Shown: positions 37,223-43,063 of the stretch, one piece after another
How the letters are laid out: each line of letters begins with the position of its first letter
Position numbering within the stretch: the stretch's first letter is position 1
Source of the DNA: Nitrospirota bacterium
Lineage (GTDB): Bacteria > JACPQY01
Direction: 5' to 3'
Assembly: GCA_016180645.1 (NCBI GenBank)
Contig: JACPAV010000002.1
Location: forward strand, 62,001-126,000
DNA length: 64,000 nt
The notes under the pieces: model-generated
Databases searched by the model: none
What the model saw: the letters and a program-made list of their open reading frames with translations, nothing else
Told to the model about the DNA's origin: nothing
Translations under genes and position numbers: made by a program

Positions 37223-37251
37223 TTGACACGTTGAACAAAAGGAAGTAAACT
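37223..37251 (+). promoter_or_regulatory. sigma-70 promoter of the export operon
   Basis: Perfect TTGACA at 37223-37228, a 17-bp spacer and TAAACT at 37246-37251 (four of six -10 positions). The expected transcript start (about 37258) nearly coincides with the GTG at 37260, suggesting a leaderless or very short-leader mRNA for the PqqD-like gene. Confidence 0.75.
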
Positions 37252-37259
37252 TAGAAAAT

Positions 37260-37538
37260 GTGAAGGGCTCTAAGCTCGGAAAAATCTCCTATCATCCAGA
37301 GATTGCGTTCAGAATCATCGACGGCGAGGCGGTTGTCATCACTCCGAAAGATGGTGTGATGCACACACTCAACCACGTAGGCACCGCGCTCTGGAAGATG
37401 CTGGAAAAGAAACCGACAAGGAATGATCTCGTGGACTCACTTGTCGAGGCGTACGAAGTCACCCCCGCTGCGGCGAGGAAGGATGTCGATGGCTTCGTCG
37501 CGGAGTTGATGTCGAAAGGATTGGTGCTGGTGGAGTGA
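37260..37538 (+). CDS. PqqD-family peptide-binding protein
   Basis: 92 residues from a GTG. PqqD fold: HPEIAFRIIDGEAVVITPKD, MHTLNHVGTALWKMLE, ..DLVDSLVEAYEVTPAAARKDVDGFVAELMSKGLV. Members bind precursor peptides (RiPP recognition element) or appear in polysaccharide/peptidase clusters. There is no PQQ or radical-SAM gene here. It is the first gene of the export operon. A 12-22 residue precursor peptide could be encoded outside the visible ORFs, but I found none. Confidence 0.85.
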   Translation: MKGSKLGKISYHPEIAFRIIDGEAVVITPKDGVMHTLNHVGTALWKMLEKKPTRNDLVDSLVEAYEVTPAAARKDVDGFVAELMSKGLVLVE

Positions 37539-37667
37539 CGAGGCAATCGTGTGCGTATCGATTCCTTTCCTCGCCCTTGGAGCGATGCGGAAAGGACGAT
37601 TGAGGGCGCAGATGGGTCGACGACAGGCGGCGGATCCTCGCCGCAATCGGGAGCAGGGCTAGGCCCC

Positions 37668-38489
37668 ATGTACAAAGACTACTGGGGTTTCAAGTTCTAC
37701 CCCTTTGAGAACGTGGTGGACCCGAAACTGTTCTTCCGGTCCAGCGTGCATCAAGAAGCCCTCATCCGGATCATGTATGCCATCAAGAACAACAAAGGCA
37801 TCGGAGTCCTTTCCGGCGAGGTGGGGAGCGGCAAGACCACGATTATCAGCTACGTGTGCGCCCTGATCGCCCGCTACGGGTACCAGATCATCAATTTTGA
37901 GGCACCCCTCTTCAGACGATGGGAATTCTACAAGGAGGTCGTCAATCAATTCGGGGCGGCGGTCCCGGTGGCGGCCGGCGGAAACGTCAGCCAGGTGGCC
38001 ATCATCGAGCAACTGCGGGATATCCTCCTGCGCCAAGTCCGCAACGGCGCGGGATCCGTCGTCTTCATCGATGAGATTCAGCTCGTGGAGGACGAAGGCG
38101 TCTTCGAAGAGATTCGGCTGCTCTCCAACTTGGTCTCGAACGGCCGGAACCTCGTCACGCAGATTCTCGTCGGACAGCCCCAGGTTCTCAAAAAGCTCGA
38201 GAGCATGCCCAATTTCCAGCAGCGCGTCGCCATTAACTACCATCTCACGCCGCTCAGTCACGGCGAAACGCTTCGCTACGTCCTCCACCGCATTGAGAAG
38301 GCCGGTGGCAAGGAAGAAATTCTGGACAAGCCTTGTTATGACCTGATCTTCCAGTACTCCCAGGGTCTCCCGCGCGTCATCAATACGCTGTGCGACCTCT
38401 CGTTGCTGGTCGCCGCGGGGGTGAAGGCGAAAAGCGTGGCCCCCGAGGTGGTGGACAAGATCGCATTCGACCAGGGGTTCAGGAAGTAG
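37668..38489 (+). CDS. ExeA/GspA-type AAA ATPase, PEP-CTERM-locus-like secretion ATPase
   Basis: About 273 residues from MYKDYWGFKFYPFENVVDP, the usual start of this family; an upstream in-frame GTG at 37551 would add 39 unconserved residues. Walker A GEVGSGKTT (residues 47-55), Walker B VVFIDEIQ (about 138), sensor region LVGQPQVLKKL and arginine-finger-type FQQRVAINYHLTPL. Related ATPases (ExeA, MshM, and the 'PEP-CTERM locus ATPase' subfamily) energise envelope assembly or export. Its gene abuts the HD-GYP gene directly. Confidence 0.85.
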   Translation: MYKDYWGFKFYPFENVVDPKLFFRSSVHQEALIRIMYAIKNNKGIGVLSGEVGSGKTTIISYVCALIARYGYQIINFEAPLFRRWEFYKEVVNQFGAAVPVAAGGNVSQVAIIEQLRDILLRQVRNGAGSVVFIDEIQLVEDEGVFEEIRLLSNLVSNGRNLVTQILVGQPQVLKKLESMPNFQQRVAINYHLTPLSHGETLRYVLHRIEKAGGKEEILDKPCYDLIFQYSQGLPRVINTLCDLSLLVAAGVKAKSVAPEVVDKIAFDQGFRK

Positions 38490-39722
38490 ATGGTCTCGAA
38501 GGACATCCCCTTGGACGCCGACTTGGAAGAACGGCCCTCCGCTCCCGGCGAGGGCCTTCGCTTCAGCGAGTTTTTCGAAGATCCCTTCGCGCAGATGAAG
38601 GAGATGCCGCCCAAGCCGGCCCCCCCCGCCGACCTTCGTCATGCTCCCCCCCCCCGACGGGACTCCAAGGTCCTCCCCTTCGAGGAGGTGGCGGAGGCGA
38701 AACCCGAAAAAGACGAAAAAGCCAAGGGGGACGAGGCGGCGGAGATGAAGATCGCGCAGATTACGGTCGCCAAGCAGTACCAGTCTCTCCGCAAGCAGCT
38801 CCACCGATTCTTCCAGGAAGTGGAGGAGAAGGGCGCAATCGTGGACATGGATGGCATCATCGCTCCGCTCACGGAAATTATGGCTCACCTCCAAGATCAC
38901 GAGGACTTCTATGTATACAGGGTCTTCTCCGTCTCCAAGGGGGACTACGAGGCCGACCCCCTGCTGTATCACTCGATTGACGTGAGTCTCCTCTCGGCAG
39001 TTCTGGCCTCTAGCCTGGGTTTTGCCTCCGCCGCCCAGATGCTCGAAATCGCCCTGAGCGCAATTCTGGCGGATGTGGGCATGTTGATTACGTGCAAGGA
39101 TCTCTGGTCCAAAACTGAAACCCTGACCGAAGAGGACCTGTCCAGACTGCATGAACATCCCATCGCCAGCTTCAAGCTCTTGAAACCCGTCAAGGGGCGC
39201 TTCCATTTTCTGGATCTCGTGGTCCTTCAAATTCACGAGCGGGAAGATGGAAGCGGGTATCCCAACCGCCTCACGTCGGCGCAAATCCATCCGTTCGCCA
39301 AGATCATCGGTCTGTGCGATATGGTCGAAAGCCTTACACATCCCCGCAGTTGGCGCGATGCGCACACGCCCTATGACATGGTGAAAATCCTGCTGGCCGA
39401 GGGAAGGAAGTTGTTCGATCCCAAGATTCTCAAGCGGTTCCTGCAGCGGATCACGCCCTTCCCACCGGGAACCCTCGTCCAACTCAACACCGGAGAGTTC
39501 GGCCACGTCATCCGGGTGAACCGCGACAATCCGCTCAGACCCGTCATTCACATCGGAGGAACCAAGCGCGGTGACGCCGGAATCGATCTCAAGAAATCCC
39601 CGTTGCTCTACGTCGTCAAATCGTTCAAGCCGGGAGAACCCCTGCCGGCCGCCAAACCCGCCGCTACCGCGGCGCCAGGATCTGATGTCGATTCATCTCG
39701 CCGTCCCCGGAGCATTGCGTAG
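38490..39722 (+). CDS. degenerate HD-GYP domain protein
   Basis: 410 residues. Residues 1-110 are a low-complexity Pro/Lys/Glu-rich linker containing C8 and C10 runs. Residues 150-320 form an HD-GYP-like helical domain. It keeps HSIDVSLL, HEHPIASFKLL, HEREDGSGYP and IIGLCDMVESL, but HDIGK reads ADVGM and the HHE of the family reads IHE. Two metal-ligand histidines are therefore missing, and phosphodiesterase activity against c-di-GMP is doubtful. A C-terminal beta region (PPGTLVQLNTGEFGHVIRV) is common after HD-GYP domains. The final residues are encoded by the first unit of a tandem array. It probably acts as a c-di-GMP-linked or structural regulator of the export genes. Confidence 0.78.
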   Translation: MVSKDIPLDADLEERPSAPGEGLRFSEFFEDPFAQMKEMPPKPAPPADLRHAPPPRRDSKVLPFEEVAEAKPEKDEKAKGDEAAEMKIAQITVAKQYQSLRKQLHRFFQEVEEKGAIVDMDGIIAPLTEIMAHLQDHEDFYVYRVFSVSKGDYEADPLLYHSIDVSLLSAVLASSLGFASAAQMLEIALSAILADVGMLITCKDLWSKTETLTEEDLSRLHEHPIASFKLLKPVKGRFHFLDLVVLQIHEREDGSGYPNRLTSAQIHPFAKIIGLCDMVESLTHPRSWRDAHTPYDMVKILLAEGRKLFDPKILKRFLQRITPFPPGTLVQLNTGEFGHVIRVNRDNPLRPVIHIGGTKRGDAGIDLKKSPLLYVVKSFKPGEPLPAAKPAATAAPGSDVDSSRRPRSIA

Positions 39723-39851
39723 GGGGCGGCGCCAGGATCTCATGTTGATTCATCTCGCCGTCCCCGAAGCGAAGCGGAGTGGGGCGGCGCCAGGATCTCA
39801 TGTTGATTCATCTCGCCGTCCCCGAAGCGAAGCGGAGTGGGACGGCGCCCT
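39671..39851. repeat. tandem array of 57-58 bp units
   Basis: Units start at GGCGCC: 39671, 39728, 39786, with a truncated fourth at 39844. Spacings are 57, 58 and 58 bp. Each unit holds an imperfect hairpin (CGCCGTCCCC ... GGGGCGGCG). The first unit encodes the last residues of the HD-GYP protein; the other two lie in the gap before the fusion gene. Confidence 0.9.
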
Positions 39852-39898
39852 GATGTTTCAGCAAGGATGCACTCTTCGTCCATGCAAGGAGGTGGGAA

Positions 39899-42415
39899 AT
39901 GACTGAATATCCCCGATTGCGCATGATGCTCGCCGCGCTCCTTTTTGCGGCGTGCGCGAAACAACCGCTGATCAAAAAAGACGCCCCCGGATGGTCCCTC
40001 GTGCGGGGCATTTTCGAGACGAACGGTTTCTTCCGCGATGTGGCCGTCGGCGACGTCAACAACGATGGGTATCTGGACGTCATCGGAGGCAACTCCAAGG
40101 TGGGAGGCATCAACGTTTGGCTGAGCTCGGCGGAGGGATCCCGCCTGGACCTCTCCATGCTGATTCGGAAGAATCTGCTCGTGGACACGATTGAGATCGG
40201 CGATGTGAATAGCGATGGTTGGAACGACATCGTCGCCTCCCCCAGCGGCCGAGGGATCGAGGTCCTCCTCAACGGTCGGGACGGAACCTGGTATTCCGCC
40301 GGGATGCTGGCCCAAGGCGGTTCGTATTCCACCCTTCGAATGACGGACCTGAATGGCGACGGCGCGGTGGACCTTGTGGGATGCAACTTCCAATATCGCG
40401 ACCAAATCGCCGGGATCCAGGTGTGGTTGAATACCGGCAAGGGCAAGTTCGATACGGACACGGGCCCTCGCTCGGAAGGCCAGTGCCGAGATGTCATCGT
40501 CACCGACTTCGATGGAGACAACAAGCCGGACATCGTCGCCGCCTTCTGGGGCCCCACAAGCTCCGTGCGAATCTGGCGAGGAGACGGTCGAGGGGGCTGG
40601 TGGGCCTACCCCATGTCCCCCCAAATGAAGCAAGGCATCTGGAGTGTTGGGGTGGCCGACGTGGACAAGGACGGACTTAAGGATCTCCTCGTGGCGCTGT
40701 ATCCCAACAGGGGCGTCTCCGTGATCCGCAACAAAGGGGAGGACGGCTGGGAGAAACCCAAGCCGATCTTCAAACGGGGCAATTTCTGGAAGATCTGGGT
40801 CGGCGACCTCAATGGCAACGGCCAGCTGGACTTGGTGGGGGCCTCGCACACCGGAGCCGGCATGCAATGGTGGCAACAGGATGGATCGTGGCAGATTCAG
40901 GATGTCGGGCTTCCCATTCGAGGTGATTATTACGGCTTCCGGGTCGGCGATCTCAACGGCGATGGAACACCTGAGATCGTCGCCGCTTCCTACGGCGAAG
41001 GTATCCGCCTCTGGTCCACGGGGAACGCCGGAAAGCTTTTCGGTAGCGCGAAAACCGGAATACTCCCGGTGGGCACGACCCCTCTGGAATTGGATTCGAC
41101 GTCGGAAACCGGCAATTATCGCCGGGCGCCCCTCGAGACGACCATCGTCATCTACTTCGACCATTCCCAAATCGCCCTTTCGGCCCAGGCCAAATCCGCG
41201 CTCGAATACGTCGTGGCCTTCATCAAGAAACATCCGGGCGCCACGGTCGAATTGGTGGGCCACGCCGAGCCGGACGCGCAACTCCCACCCGCGATTGAGA
41301 ACTTGGAGAAACTCTCGCGGATCCGCGCCGAGTCCGTTGGAGATTATCTGTCCGAGCTGGGGGTGAACAAGAGCCTCATCACCTTCAGCGCGCTGGGCGA
41401 AACCGCTCCCCTCTCCCCCGTCCCAGAGGCCAATCGAGCTGTGGAAGTGGTCATCAAGCTGCCCGAAGCCGAGCTGCCACAGTCGGCGTCTCAGGCAGCC
41501 GCCGGAACCGAGATCCCGCCGCCACCGCGGTTTGTCGAAGAAAGGCCGTATGTCATCGGGCCGGGGGACGTTCTGGCGATCACACTTTGGCAGAGAGGCA
41601 AACCCGAAGCCTATGTCGTGAATGTCCGGTCCGATGGAACCATCTCCTTCCTTTTTCTTCGGGATGTCATGATCGCAGGCAATAGTGTGAAGGACGCCAT
41701 CGCCGCCCTCGAAAACGAATTGAAGCGATACTACAAGGAGCCGCTGGTCGATGTCGTCGTCAAAGAGTTCAACAGCCAGCGGGTTCTCGTGATCGGCGCC
41801 ATCGGAGGAACGACTGCTGCCGCGGGATCACGCGTCGTGCCGCTCTCCAAGCCCACCCGCATCGTGGAGGTAATCGCCGCCGCCGGGGGGCCGAACATCG
41901 ATGCGGATCTGAAAAACGTCTCCATCGCCAATCCGCAGGGGCAGACGCAGTACATCAACATGTTCCGGGTTCTCTTCGAAGGCGACCAATCCCAGAACAT
42001 CTACGTGTCGCCCGGAGAGGTCGTCTTCGTCCCCTCCCTGCAGCAGTCGGTCAACCGCATCTACGTATTCGGCGAAGTCCTGCAACCCGGCGCCTTTCCT
42101 CTTCGCGACGGGGCCACCATTCTGGATGTGATCGCGGATGCAGGGGGCTACTCCCTCCAAGCCAAAATCAGCGGCGTGGGAATCCTCAGGCCCGGCCTGG
42201 AGCGACCTGAAATTCTCACCGTCAACCTTGAACGATTGGTCAAGAAGGGAGACAGCACCCAGAATATTCCGATTCAAAACCGCGACATCATCTACGTGCC
42301 CCGACACGCCATCTACACGATCAACCAATGGGTGGCCGCGTACACTCAGTTGGCGGGAAGCGTCTTGCTTCCCTTGAACTTGGTGACCCAGATCAACGCC
42401 CTTCAGAAGCAGTGA
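39899..42415 (+). CDS. beta-propeller / OmpA-like / polysaccharide-export (Wza-type) three-part fusion lipoprotein
   Basis: 838 residues, with AGGAGG 7 bp before the ATG. Lipobox LLFAAC. Residues 35-370 contain seven FG-GAP/VCBS-like blades, each with a DxNxDGxxD calcium-type loop (GDVNNDGYLDVIGG, GDVNSDGWNDIVA, DLNGDGAVDLVG, DFDGDNKPDIVAA, DVDKDGLKDLLVA, DLNGNGQLDLVGA, DLNGDGTPEIVAA). Residues 410-520 are OmpA-C-like (TIVIYFDHSQIALSAQAKS, VELVGHAEPDAQLPPAI). Residues 545-830 are a polysaccharide-export domain (YVIGPGDVLAITLWQRG) plus SLBB repeats (VFGEVLQPGAFPL). It probably sits at the outer membrane as an export pore bound to peptidoglycan. This architecture is unusual in my knowledge. Confidence 0.88.
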   Translation: MTEYPRLRMMLAALLFAACAKQPLIKKDAPGWSLVRGIFETNGFFRDVAVGDVNNDGYLDVIGGNSKVGGINVWLSSAEGSRLDLSMLIRKNLLVDTIEIGDVNSDGWNDIVASPSGRGIEVLLNGRDGTWYSAGMLAQGGSYSTLRMTDLNGDGAVDLVGCNFQYRDQIAGIQVWLNTGKGKFDTDTGPRSEGQCRDVIVTDFDGDNKPDIVAAFWGPTSSVRIWRGDGRGGWWAYPMSPQMKQGIWSVGVADVDKDGLKDLLVALYPNRGVSVIRNKGEDGWEKPKPIFKRGNFWKIWVGDLNGNGQLDLVGASHTGAGMQWWQQDGSWQIQDVGLPIRGDYYGFRVGDLNGDGTPEIVAASYGEGIRLWSTGNAGKLFGSAKTGILPVGTTPLELDSTSETGNYRRAPLETTIVIYFDHSQIALSAQAKSALEYVVAFIKKHPGATVELVGHAEPDAQLPPAIENLEKLSRIRAESVGDYLSELGVNKSLITFSALGETAPLSPVPEANRAVEVVIKLPEAELPQSASQAAAGTEIPPPPRFVEERPYVIGPGDVLAITLWQRGKPEAYVVNVRSDGTISFLFLRDVMIAGNSVKDAIAALENELKRYYKEPLVDVVVKEFNSQRVLVIGAIGGTTAAAGSRVVPLSKPTRIVEVIAAAGGPNIDADLKNVSIANPQGQTQYINMFRVLFEGDQSQNIYVSPGEVVFVPSLQQSVNRIYVFGEVLQPGAFPLRDGATILDVIADAGGYSLQAKISGVGILRPGLERPEILTVNLERLVKKGDSTQNIPIQNRDIIYVPRHAIYTINQWVAAYTQLAGSVLLPLNLVTQINALQKQ

Positions 42416-42428
42416 GAGGAGAGCCCGG

Positions 42429-42611
42429 ATGCAGAGACTGAGCCCTTTCGTTCTTTACCTCGGAATCGTGAGCACCCTCGCCGGCGGAATCCTGAGGGTG
42501 GGGGAGGCGCATATCCACGGTGTTGGGCCCAAGTCATTCGCCGCCTTGGCCGGGCTCTGCTTCCTCTACTCGATCGCCGCGTCTCTCCTGCCGAAGAAAT
42601 CGGATTCATGA
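42429..42611 (+). CDS. small two-helix membrane protein
   Basis: 60 residues with two membrane helices (SPFVLYLGIVSTLAGGILRV and SFAALAGLCFLYSIAASLL). GAGGAG lies 9 bp upstream. It starts 13 bp after the fusion gene and overlaps the next gene by 4 bp (ATGA), so it is translated as part of the operon. Function unknown; possibly an inner-membrane partner of the export apparatus. Confidence 0.8.
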   Translation: MQRLSPFVLYLGIVSTLAGGILRVGEAHIHGVGPKSFAALAGLCFLYSIAASLLPKKSDS

Positions 42612-43063
42612 ATACGGGTGCCACGCGCTCGGCCCTCCACGACGAGCTGGCCCGGGACCATCTGGTGTCCACTTTGAAGGCGGGGAGGCCCGTGTCGTTC
42701 CGCGTCCGGGGCGGCAGCATGGAGCCTTGGATCCACGATGGAGACATCGTGGAAGTCGAGCCCGATTCGGTTCTCGAAAAGGGAGACGTGGCCCTGGTGG
42801 AAGATGCGCGAATCCTTCGGGTTCATCGCGTCATTGACGCCGGGACGGACGGGATTCGAACGGCCGGCGACCGCCTCAAGAGAGCCGATCCTCCGGCGGC
42901 GTGGAAGCGGGTCCTGGGCCGGGTGAAACGCGTAACGAGAAACGGTCGAACGGTCCACCTGGCGCTCCACCCGGCCATCGGTCGCGTGTGGGCGGCCCTC
43001 TTTCCACTTCGACCCCGCCTGTTTCCCATCCTGCGCACAATCAAGCGTCTTGCCCAAGCCTAG
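42608..43063 (+). CDS. S24/S26-family (signal-peptidase-like) serine peptidase
   Basis: 151 residues. Nucleophile motif FRVRGGSMEPWIHDGDIVEVEP (SMxP...GD) near residues 33-45, then KGDVALVEDARILRVHRVI. The second catalytic element reads HRV, as in S26B/archaeal-eukaryotic signal peptidases and LexA-like relatives, rather than the bacterial lysine motif. A C-terminal hydrophobic and basic tail (VWAALFPLRPRLFPILRTI) could be a membrane anchor. It ends the PqqD-ATPase-export operon and may process an exported substrate or tag. Confidence 0.85.
   Translation: MNTGATRSALHDELARDHLVSTLKAGRPVSFRVRGGSMEPWIHDGDIVEVEPDSVLEKGDVALVEDARILRVHRVIDAGTDGIRTAGDRLKRADPPAAWKRVLGRVKRVTRNGRTVHLALHPAIGRVWAALFPLRPRLFPILRTIKRLAQA

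Follow-up and report, generated by a model that had tools for sequence, protein, structure and literature searches.

A Nitrospirota operon that looks like a polysaccharide export locus with unusual control and anchoring

The switching of surface polysaccharide export via Wza-type pores is largely open beyond a few models. Control of polysaccharides by cyclic di-GMP (c-di-GMP) is known to run through PilZ, degenerate GGDEF/EAL and similar domains. The described systems closest to the locus presented here are the E. coli exporter Wza of the OPX type, HD-GYP phosphodiesterases, the ATPase of XrtA/PEP-CTERM systems, and a cassette that NCBIfam names HPr-rel-A. The locus covers positions 37260-43063 of a 64,000-nucleotide stretch (the window; contig C2:62001-126000) from the 4.7 Mb, 97% complete genome of a Nitrospirota bacterium (G000). 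The list of open reading frames (ORFs) and Pfam/NCBIfam profile searches give six genes on one strand, in the order claimed by the first-pass annotation: a PqqD-like protein, an ExeA-like ATPase, a degenerate HD-GYP protein (HD protein in the following), a fusion exporter, a protein of 60 amino acids (aa), and a peptidase. We consider it probable that this operon encodes a peptidoglycan-tethered outer-membrane polysaccharide exporter controlled by the ATPase and the HD protein, the latter possibly being a c-di-GMP receptor.

The exporter is an 838-aa fusion (39899..42415, + strand) whose domains all score above the Pfam cut-offs (FG-GAP_3 132.7, OmpA 37.9, Poly_export 54.7, SLBB 62.0). Six FG-GAP stretches are accompanied by OmpA (aa 419-507), Poly_export (aa 548-621) and two SLBB domains, and the N-terminus is lipoprotein-like (LLFAAC, by eye). 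Residues 542-765 match the solved Wza structure 2j58 with an E-value of 2.8e-22. When searched against 290 genomes, the OmpA-to-Wza part finds matches in 103, nearly all over the Wza part only. A full-length homologue is present in another phylum (locus L159 of genome G093; 841 aa, residues 9-828, 33% identity, E 1e-145). It shows the identical order of FG-GAP, OmpA, Poly_export and SLBB and is located directly 5' of a Wzc and a Wzy-like gene. Within that phylum, 6/8 genomes show a match to the fusion, two of them split by contig ends. Partial architectures are found as well, i.e., FG-GAP plus Poly_export with no OmpA match in G215, and OmpA plus Poly_export in G074 and G197, while the G286 cluster contains a stand-alone OmpA-LysM gene. 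A scan for the fusion in named genomes returned only FG-GAP proteins from Bacteroidota and Verrucomicrobia relatives and no exporter. With full-length and partial versions present in other genomes, the fusion represents an architecture found repeatedly in polysaccharide loci and not an assembly accident.

The conserved core of the locus consists of the ATPase, the HD protein and the Wza-type exporter. The ATPase (37668..38489, + strand; AAA_22 63.5 bits, cut-off 27) adjoins an HD gene in 13 distant genomes, each from a different family. Only one compared genome (G001) belongs to the same family as the window genome, and all others are related to it at the rank of taxonomic domain only. Many of the distant pairs adjoin Wza, Wzc, Wzy-like, ABC-2 exporter or glycosyltransferase genes, e.g., in the orders Wza-ATPase-HD-Wzc (G086), ATPase-HD-Wza-Wzc-Wzy_C (G043) and ATPase-HD-Wza-Wzc-ABC-2 (G088); in G286, one gene separates ATPase-HD from Wza. 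According to Pfam scans of the neighbours, G049 and G043 have both Wzc-type (Wzz/GNVR/AAA_31) and O-antigen-ligase-type (Wzy_C) proteins, and G088 has Wzc-type proteins and ABC-2 exporters. ABC-2 exporters further occur in G286 and G093, and G146 has a family-4 glycosyltransferase. Not every neighbour relates to export: G093 has a PALP enzyme next door, and G043 a MoeA gene. The first-pass annotation had tied its proposal of an export or surface-assembly role to the conservation of neighbours in relatives. This conservation is observed for the core, and the proposed role is supported by the polysaccharide-export genes that recur beside ATPase-HD in distant genomes. On the other hand, an undescribed export system in the strong sense is not what we find: the exporter is Wza-type, and its full-length homologue directly precedes Wzc and Wzy-like genes. 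For the same reason, the operon resembles a polysaccharide export system that is controlled and anchored in an unusual way and has its partners elsewhere in the genome.

The 410-aa HD protein (38490..39722, + strand; HD_5 76.7 bits, cut-off 27.2) bears out its earlier label as a degenerate HD-GYP. It reads ADVGM (A194, M198) in place of HDxGK and IHE (I248) in place of HHE, while DGSGYP leaves the GYP motif intact and RxxR is kept. In the alignment with the solved PmGH (4mcw), these changes are H to A, K to M, and H to I. That is, the window protein does not carry the set of HD, HDxGK lysine and HHE metal-binding residues of a catalytic HD-GYP phosphodiesterase. We take the three changed positions to be metal/catalytic residues in PmGH, and the R..K pair presumably contacts the ligand there. 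This would be the pattern expected for a receptor, because catalysis-side residues are lost while ligand-side residues are kept; binding of c-di-GMP is putative.

A search with the HD protein gave matches in 149/290 genomes. Loci were picked by HD similarity and not by context, except for flanks fetched for paralogues: 30 automatically fetched loci, 20 lower-ranked controls, 20 more loci and the paralogues, with many weaker matches left out. Contexts were counted by a six-frame hidden Markov model search; the codon-based gene caller sometimes took antisense frames (e.g., over the HD gene in L076 and L179). A homologous ATPase is found beside the HD gene in 12/30 automatically fetched loci, window included, and in none of the 20 controls within 2.1 kb centre to centre; in control locus L129, one lies at most 1.5 kb from HD but is encoded on the opposite strand. 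In a midpoint-rooted tree of 86 HD domains (duplicates and domains below 60 bits or 150 aa dropped), the window protein falls within a 29-member clade with support 0.949. Of the clade members, 27/29 have a same-strand neighbour at most 1.5 kb away that is a homologous ATPase, Wza or Wzc (ATPase 14, Wza 8, Wzc 13), vs. 0/57 outside the clade. Eleven tips belong to the window genome or G001, and 14 further genomes, each of a different family, supply the remaining 18; ten of the 11, i.e., all but the window, pair with a Wzc-type gene and not with an ATPase. The difference also manifests in the motifs, where the first His of HHE is lost in 27/29 clade members vs. 4/57 outside. The Tyr of GYP and the R..[RK] pair are each kept in 28/29 members. 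The table of motifs by context excludes the window and loci with unread motif. We tentatively suggest, while holding it for somewhat less than an even bet, that the clade forms a new class of cyclic-dinucleotide receptors for polysaccharide export, which would bind c-di-GMP (or a relative) uncut and, together with the ExeA-like ATPase, remodel or gate Wzc/Wza in many unrelated families. Such a clade of degenerate HD-GYP proteins, which hardly occur away from exporters, Wzc or a partner ATPase, would be a testable new control element.

In the mechanism we favour, the fusion would be a Wza-type (OPX) lipoprotein in which Poly_export and SLBB form the channel, OmpA ties the protein to peptidoglycan, and the FG-GAP propeller serves as periplasmic scaffold or ligand-binding platform. 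A ring oligomer with a C-terminal helix pore in the outer membrane would be expected of a member of this class; the C-terminal stretch of the fusion was read by eye only. Such a peptidoglycan-anchored propeller exporter would be a new pore architecture. The ATPase and the HD protein may physically pair in the cytoplasm and sense a signal, most likely c-di-GMP bound uncut, which would turn polymer assembly or export on. Inner-membrane partners of Wzc type would act in trans from other contigs: the window genome has Wza-Wzc pairs on contig C48 and HD-Wzc pairs on C5, C21, C33 and C40, and the paralogous HD genes of G000 and G001 adjoin Wzc-type proteins. PqqD, together with the S24/S26-type peptidase in this lineage, might be an accessory taken over from a PqqD/radical-SAM cassette, a frequent companion of such loci.

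Several observations weigh against this reading of the operon. No Wzc, Wzy or glycosyltransferase was recognised among its genes, as already stated in the first-pass annotation, and the 176-bp repeat gap before the fusion could part transcripts. Within the family, conservation can be traced for part of the operon only: the G001 contig ends inside the exporter gene and lacks the pqqD-ATPase-HD end. Its order continues with the 60-aa protein, pgsA, and glpK- and galU-like genes (identity to the window 62% for the exporter, 65% for the 60-aa protein and 71% for pgsA). A close ATPase orthologue was not found in G001 (best 32% identity), where the assembly is 84% complete and the upstream genes are cut off by the contig end. 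With regard to the clade, members L180 and L188 have no ATPase, Wza or Wzc nearby, and the Fisher value of 2.5e-20 for its context ignores relatedness; as the tips are not independent, this value is overstated and serves as a rough guide. Loss of the HDxGK lysine, seen in 29/29 members, is unspecific, and we rejected it as a clade marker since 29/57 outsiders share it. Finally, the changed residues presumably include metal ligands of PmGH that can also hold the ligand, i.e., binding may be lost as well.

The PqqD-like protein (92 aa, GTG start, 37260..37538, + strand) matches PF05402 with 65.3 bits (cut-off 23.4) and has by family the recognition-element fold of ribosomally synthesized and post-translationally modified peptides (RiPPs). 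No curated NCBIfam PqqD subfamily reaches its cut-off (TIGR04353: 24.0 vs. 35 bits), and neither does any of the tested PqqD or HprK-like proteins from several loci. PqqD is a recurrent but minority neighbour of ATPase-HD loci, found in the fetched flanks of 4/11 mapped distant loci (G049, G146, G286 and, about 6 kb off, G215). The respective gene orders are PqqD-radical SAM-HprK-like-NTP_transf_5 in G146 and PqqD-radical SAM-HprK-like-(S24 fused to NTP_transf_5) in G286. On other contigs, G215 carries NTP_transf_5, radical-SAM-like, FG-GAP-Wza, Wzc and Wzy-like genes in a row, and G088 carries HprK-like, S24, PqqD and radical SAM genes. In the window genome, NTP_transf_5 and a PqqD-radical SAM pair are located near the HD-Wzc pair on contig C5. 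Judged by its domains, the window operon appears to hold two pieces (PqqD, S24) of this PqqD/HprK/NTP_transf_5 cassette; HprK and NTP_transf_5 were not recognised in it. Profile scans of the six operon and three flanking proteins recognised no radical SAM and no precursor, the latter sought by reading only.

The last two genes of the operon encode the 60-aa protein (42429..42611, + strand), apparently a membrane protein by reading and with no Pfam or NCBIfam match, and the 151-aa S24/S26-type peptidase (42608..43063, + strand; PF00717 29.6 bits, cut-off 23.3). The SMEP serine and the VHRVI histidine of the peptidase align with homologues, and S26 models score below their cut-offs (PF10502 15.4 vs. 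22.9, TIGR02228 29.5 vs. 51.85). In G001, no S24/S26 gene is located between the 60-aa protein and pgsA, so the peptidase is not a fixed part of the operon. As a separate observation on PqqD, contig C5 of G000 contains a lasso-peptide-like cluster (L105 14535-19096 and L076 1248-10276) with a 57-aa ORF (precursor-like by reading), an ABC transporter, a transglutaminase-like protein, PqqD and asparagine synthase; a second asparagine synthase, PqqD, radical SAM and an HD-Wzc pair are nearby. The sole PqqD match of G001 (contig C86, L106 8265-14000) stands with asparagine synthase, divergent from an HD-Wzc pair.

The operon might also be a chance row in which the regulator pair of ATPase and HD protein, the exporter and the neighbouring housekeeping gene pgsA are unrelated in function and work with separate partners. 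The repeat gap between HD and fusion, the variable peptidase (missing in G001), and ATPase-HD pairs adjoining non-export genes, e.g., the PALP enzyme in G093, would fit. We nevertheless regard a chance row as unlikely: G043 and G088 repeat the order ATPase-HD-Wza, G286 does so with a single gene inserted before Wza, G086 has Wza ahead of the pair, and 27/29 clade members have an ATPase, Wza or Wzc nearby. Still less credence goes to RiPP-like peptide export, in which PqqD would present a precursor, the peptidase trim it and the fusion export it. Its PqqD domain is present, and a radical SAM follows PqqD on contig C5, where the lasso-type cluster also lies beside the HD-Wzc pair. PqqD further occurs with radical SAM, HprK-like, NTP_transf_5 and sometimes S24 near ATPase/HD or exporter genes in G049, G146 and G286, and G215 has cassette genes near its exporter, with no adjacent PqqD. 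On the other hand, the operon has no recognisable precursor, radical SAM or cyclase, the exporter belongs to a polysaccharide class, and PqqD accompanies only the minority of distant loci given above. The proposed recognition and cleavage of a peptide is not sustained: PqqD and S24 do recur near such loci, along with radical SAM, HprK-like and NTP_transf_5 genes, but G001 has no S26-like gene at the corresponding position.

The least probable explanation is a system of XrtA/PEP-CTERM type, in which an exosortase would direct tagged proteins to the surface together with a polysaccharide and would rely on the ATPase and the exporter. It is backed by the best NCBIfam matches, TIGR03015 for the ATPase (full length) and TIGR03027 for the exporter, and by exosortases in 3/13 genomes tested (G043, G088, G093). 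Both scores are far below the curated cut-offs, i.e., 180.8 vs. 324.5 and 123.1 vs. 180 bits, and exosortase is absent from 9/12 other genomes tested as well as from the window genome (0 matches to PF09721). We rejected an exosortase system on these grounds, and the suggested export of a tagged protein is not supported. From the earlier description as a PEP-CTERM-locus-type ATPase with a Wza-type exporter, the best family matches and the Poly_export/SLBB domains remain, while neither protein reaches the PEP-CTERM cut-offs.

Within the preferred reading of the locus as a polysaccharide exporter, some details of its layout need adjustment. Between the ORFs lie 12 bp (from pqqD to GTG 37551, which opens the ATPase ORF), 0, 176 (repeat) and 13 bp, and the last two ORFs overlap by 4 bp. 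The ATPase homologues begin to match only near residue 40 of the ORF, where an ATG is located (37668), and because the conserved part starts there, the gap after pqqD is probably 129 bp rather than 12 bp. The spacing claimed before is not borne out at this junction, nor at the repeat array, which leaves 176 bp ahead of the fusion. The repeat array itself is real (58 bp, 3.1 copies, 39669..39849, no strand assigned): it overlaps the 3' end of the HD gene and crosses its stop codon, such that the repeat also encodes the C-terminus of the HD protein. Matches to the repeat core are scattered over the host genome (16 at up to 3 mismatches, compared to 0 for the reversed control). Upstream of pqqD, a candidate sigma-70 promoter TTGACA-17-TAAACT (37223..37251, + strand) shows 10/12 matches. 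It is weak and not the strong promoter first described: sites with at least 9/12 matches number 2 in 6.4 kb vs. 1.5 expected in shuffles, i.e., the candidate seems plausible by position only, its match being no better than chance. If it is used, the GTG of pqqD at 37260 is almost leaderless. Profile scans place a ComF-like gene upstream on the opposite strand and pgsA downstream, beyond which we take the genes to be glpK, galU and ABC-F (names by reading). Elsewhere, contig C48 of G000 has two divergent FecR-type/Wza/Wzc sets back to back (L032 5717-16735), and locus L073 (6602-8962) encodes an FtsH-like protease with a C-terminal OmpA domain.

Among open-licence full texts, subscription papers being outside scope, we found no paper linking HD-GYP to an ATPase-Wza-Wzc context or describing the fusion. 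None was found on PqqD with HPr kinase and exosortase, nor, among the papers listed, one using the term HPr-rel-A. The part seen of a Leptospira c-di-GMP paper (PMC12943098) mentions neither polysaccharide nor Wza. The components are apparently of known kinds, while the pairing of HD-GYP with export and the fusion architecture appear undescribed in this literature.

Compared to the HPr-rel-A cassette, the operon shares PqqD and S24, and relatives' loci carry the HprK and nucleotidyltransferase members; it differs in that HprK, NTP_transf_5 and radical SAM are unrecognised in the operon and its PqqD is below the TIGR04353 cut-off. The XrtA/PEP-CTERM ATPase TIGR03015 is the best curated match of the window ATPase, which scores below that family's cut-off, comes from a genome with no exosortase, and has the HD protein as partner instead. 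With HD-GYP phosphodiesterases (PmGH 4mcw; PA4781 4r8z), the HD protein shares the GYP motif and an alignment of aa 136-322 to 4mcw (E 2.4e-10), whereas its HD His, HDxGK Lys and first HHE His are replaced and its gene resides in export loci. Finally, the fusion resembles E. coli Wza/OPX in its Poly_export and SLBB domains and its lipoprotein-like N-terminus. It differs from Wza in having no Wzc next door and in carrying, on the same chain, an FG-GAP propeller at the N-terminus and an OmpA domain for peptidoglycan binding.

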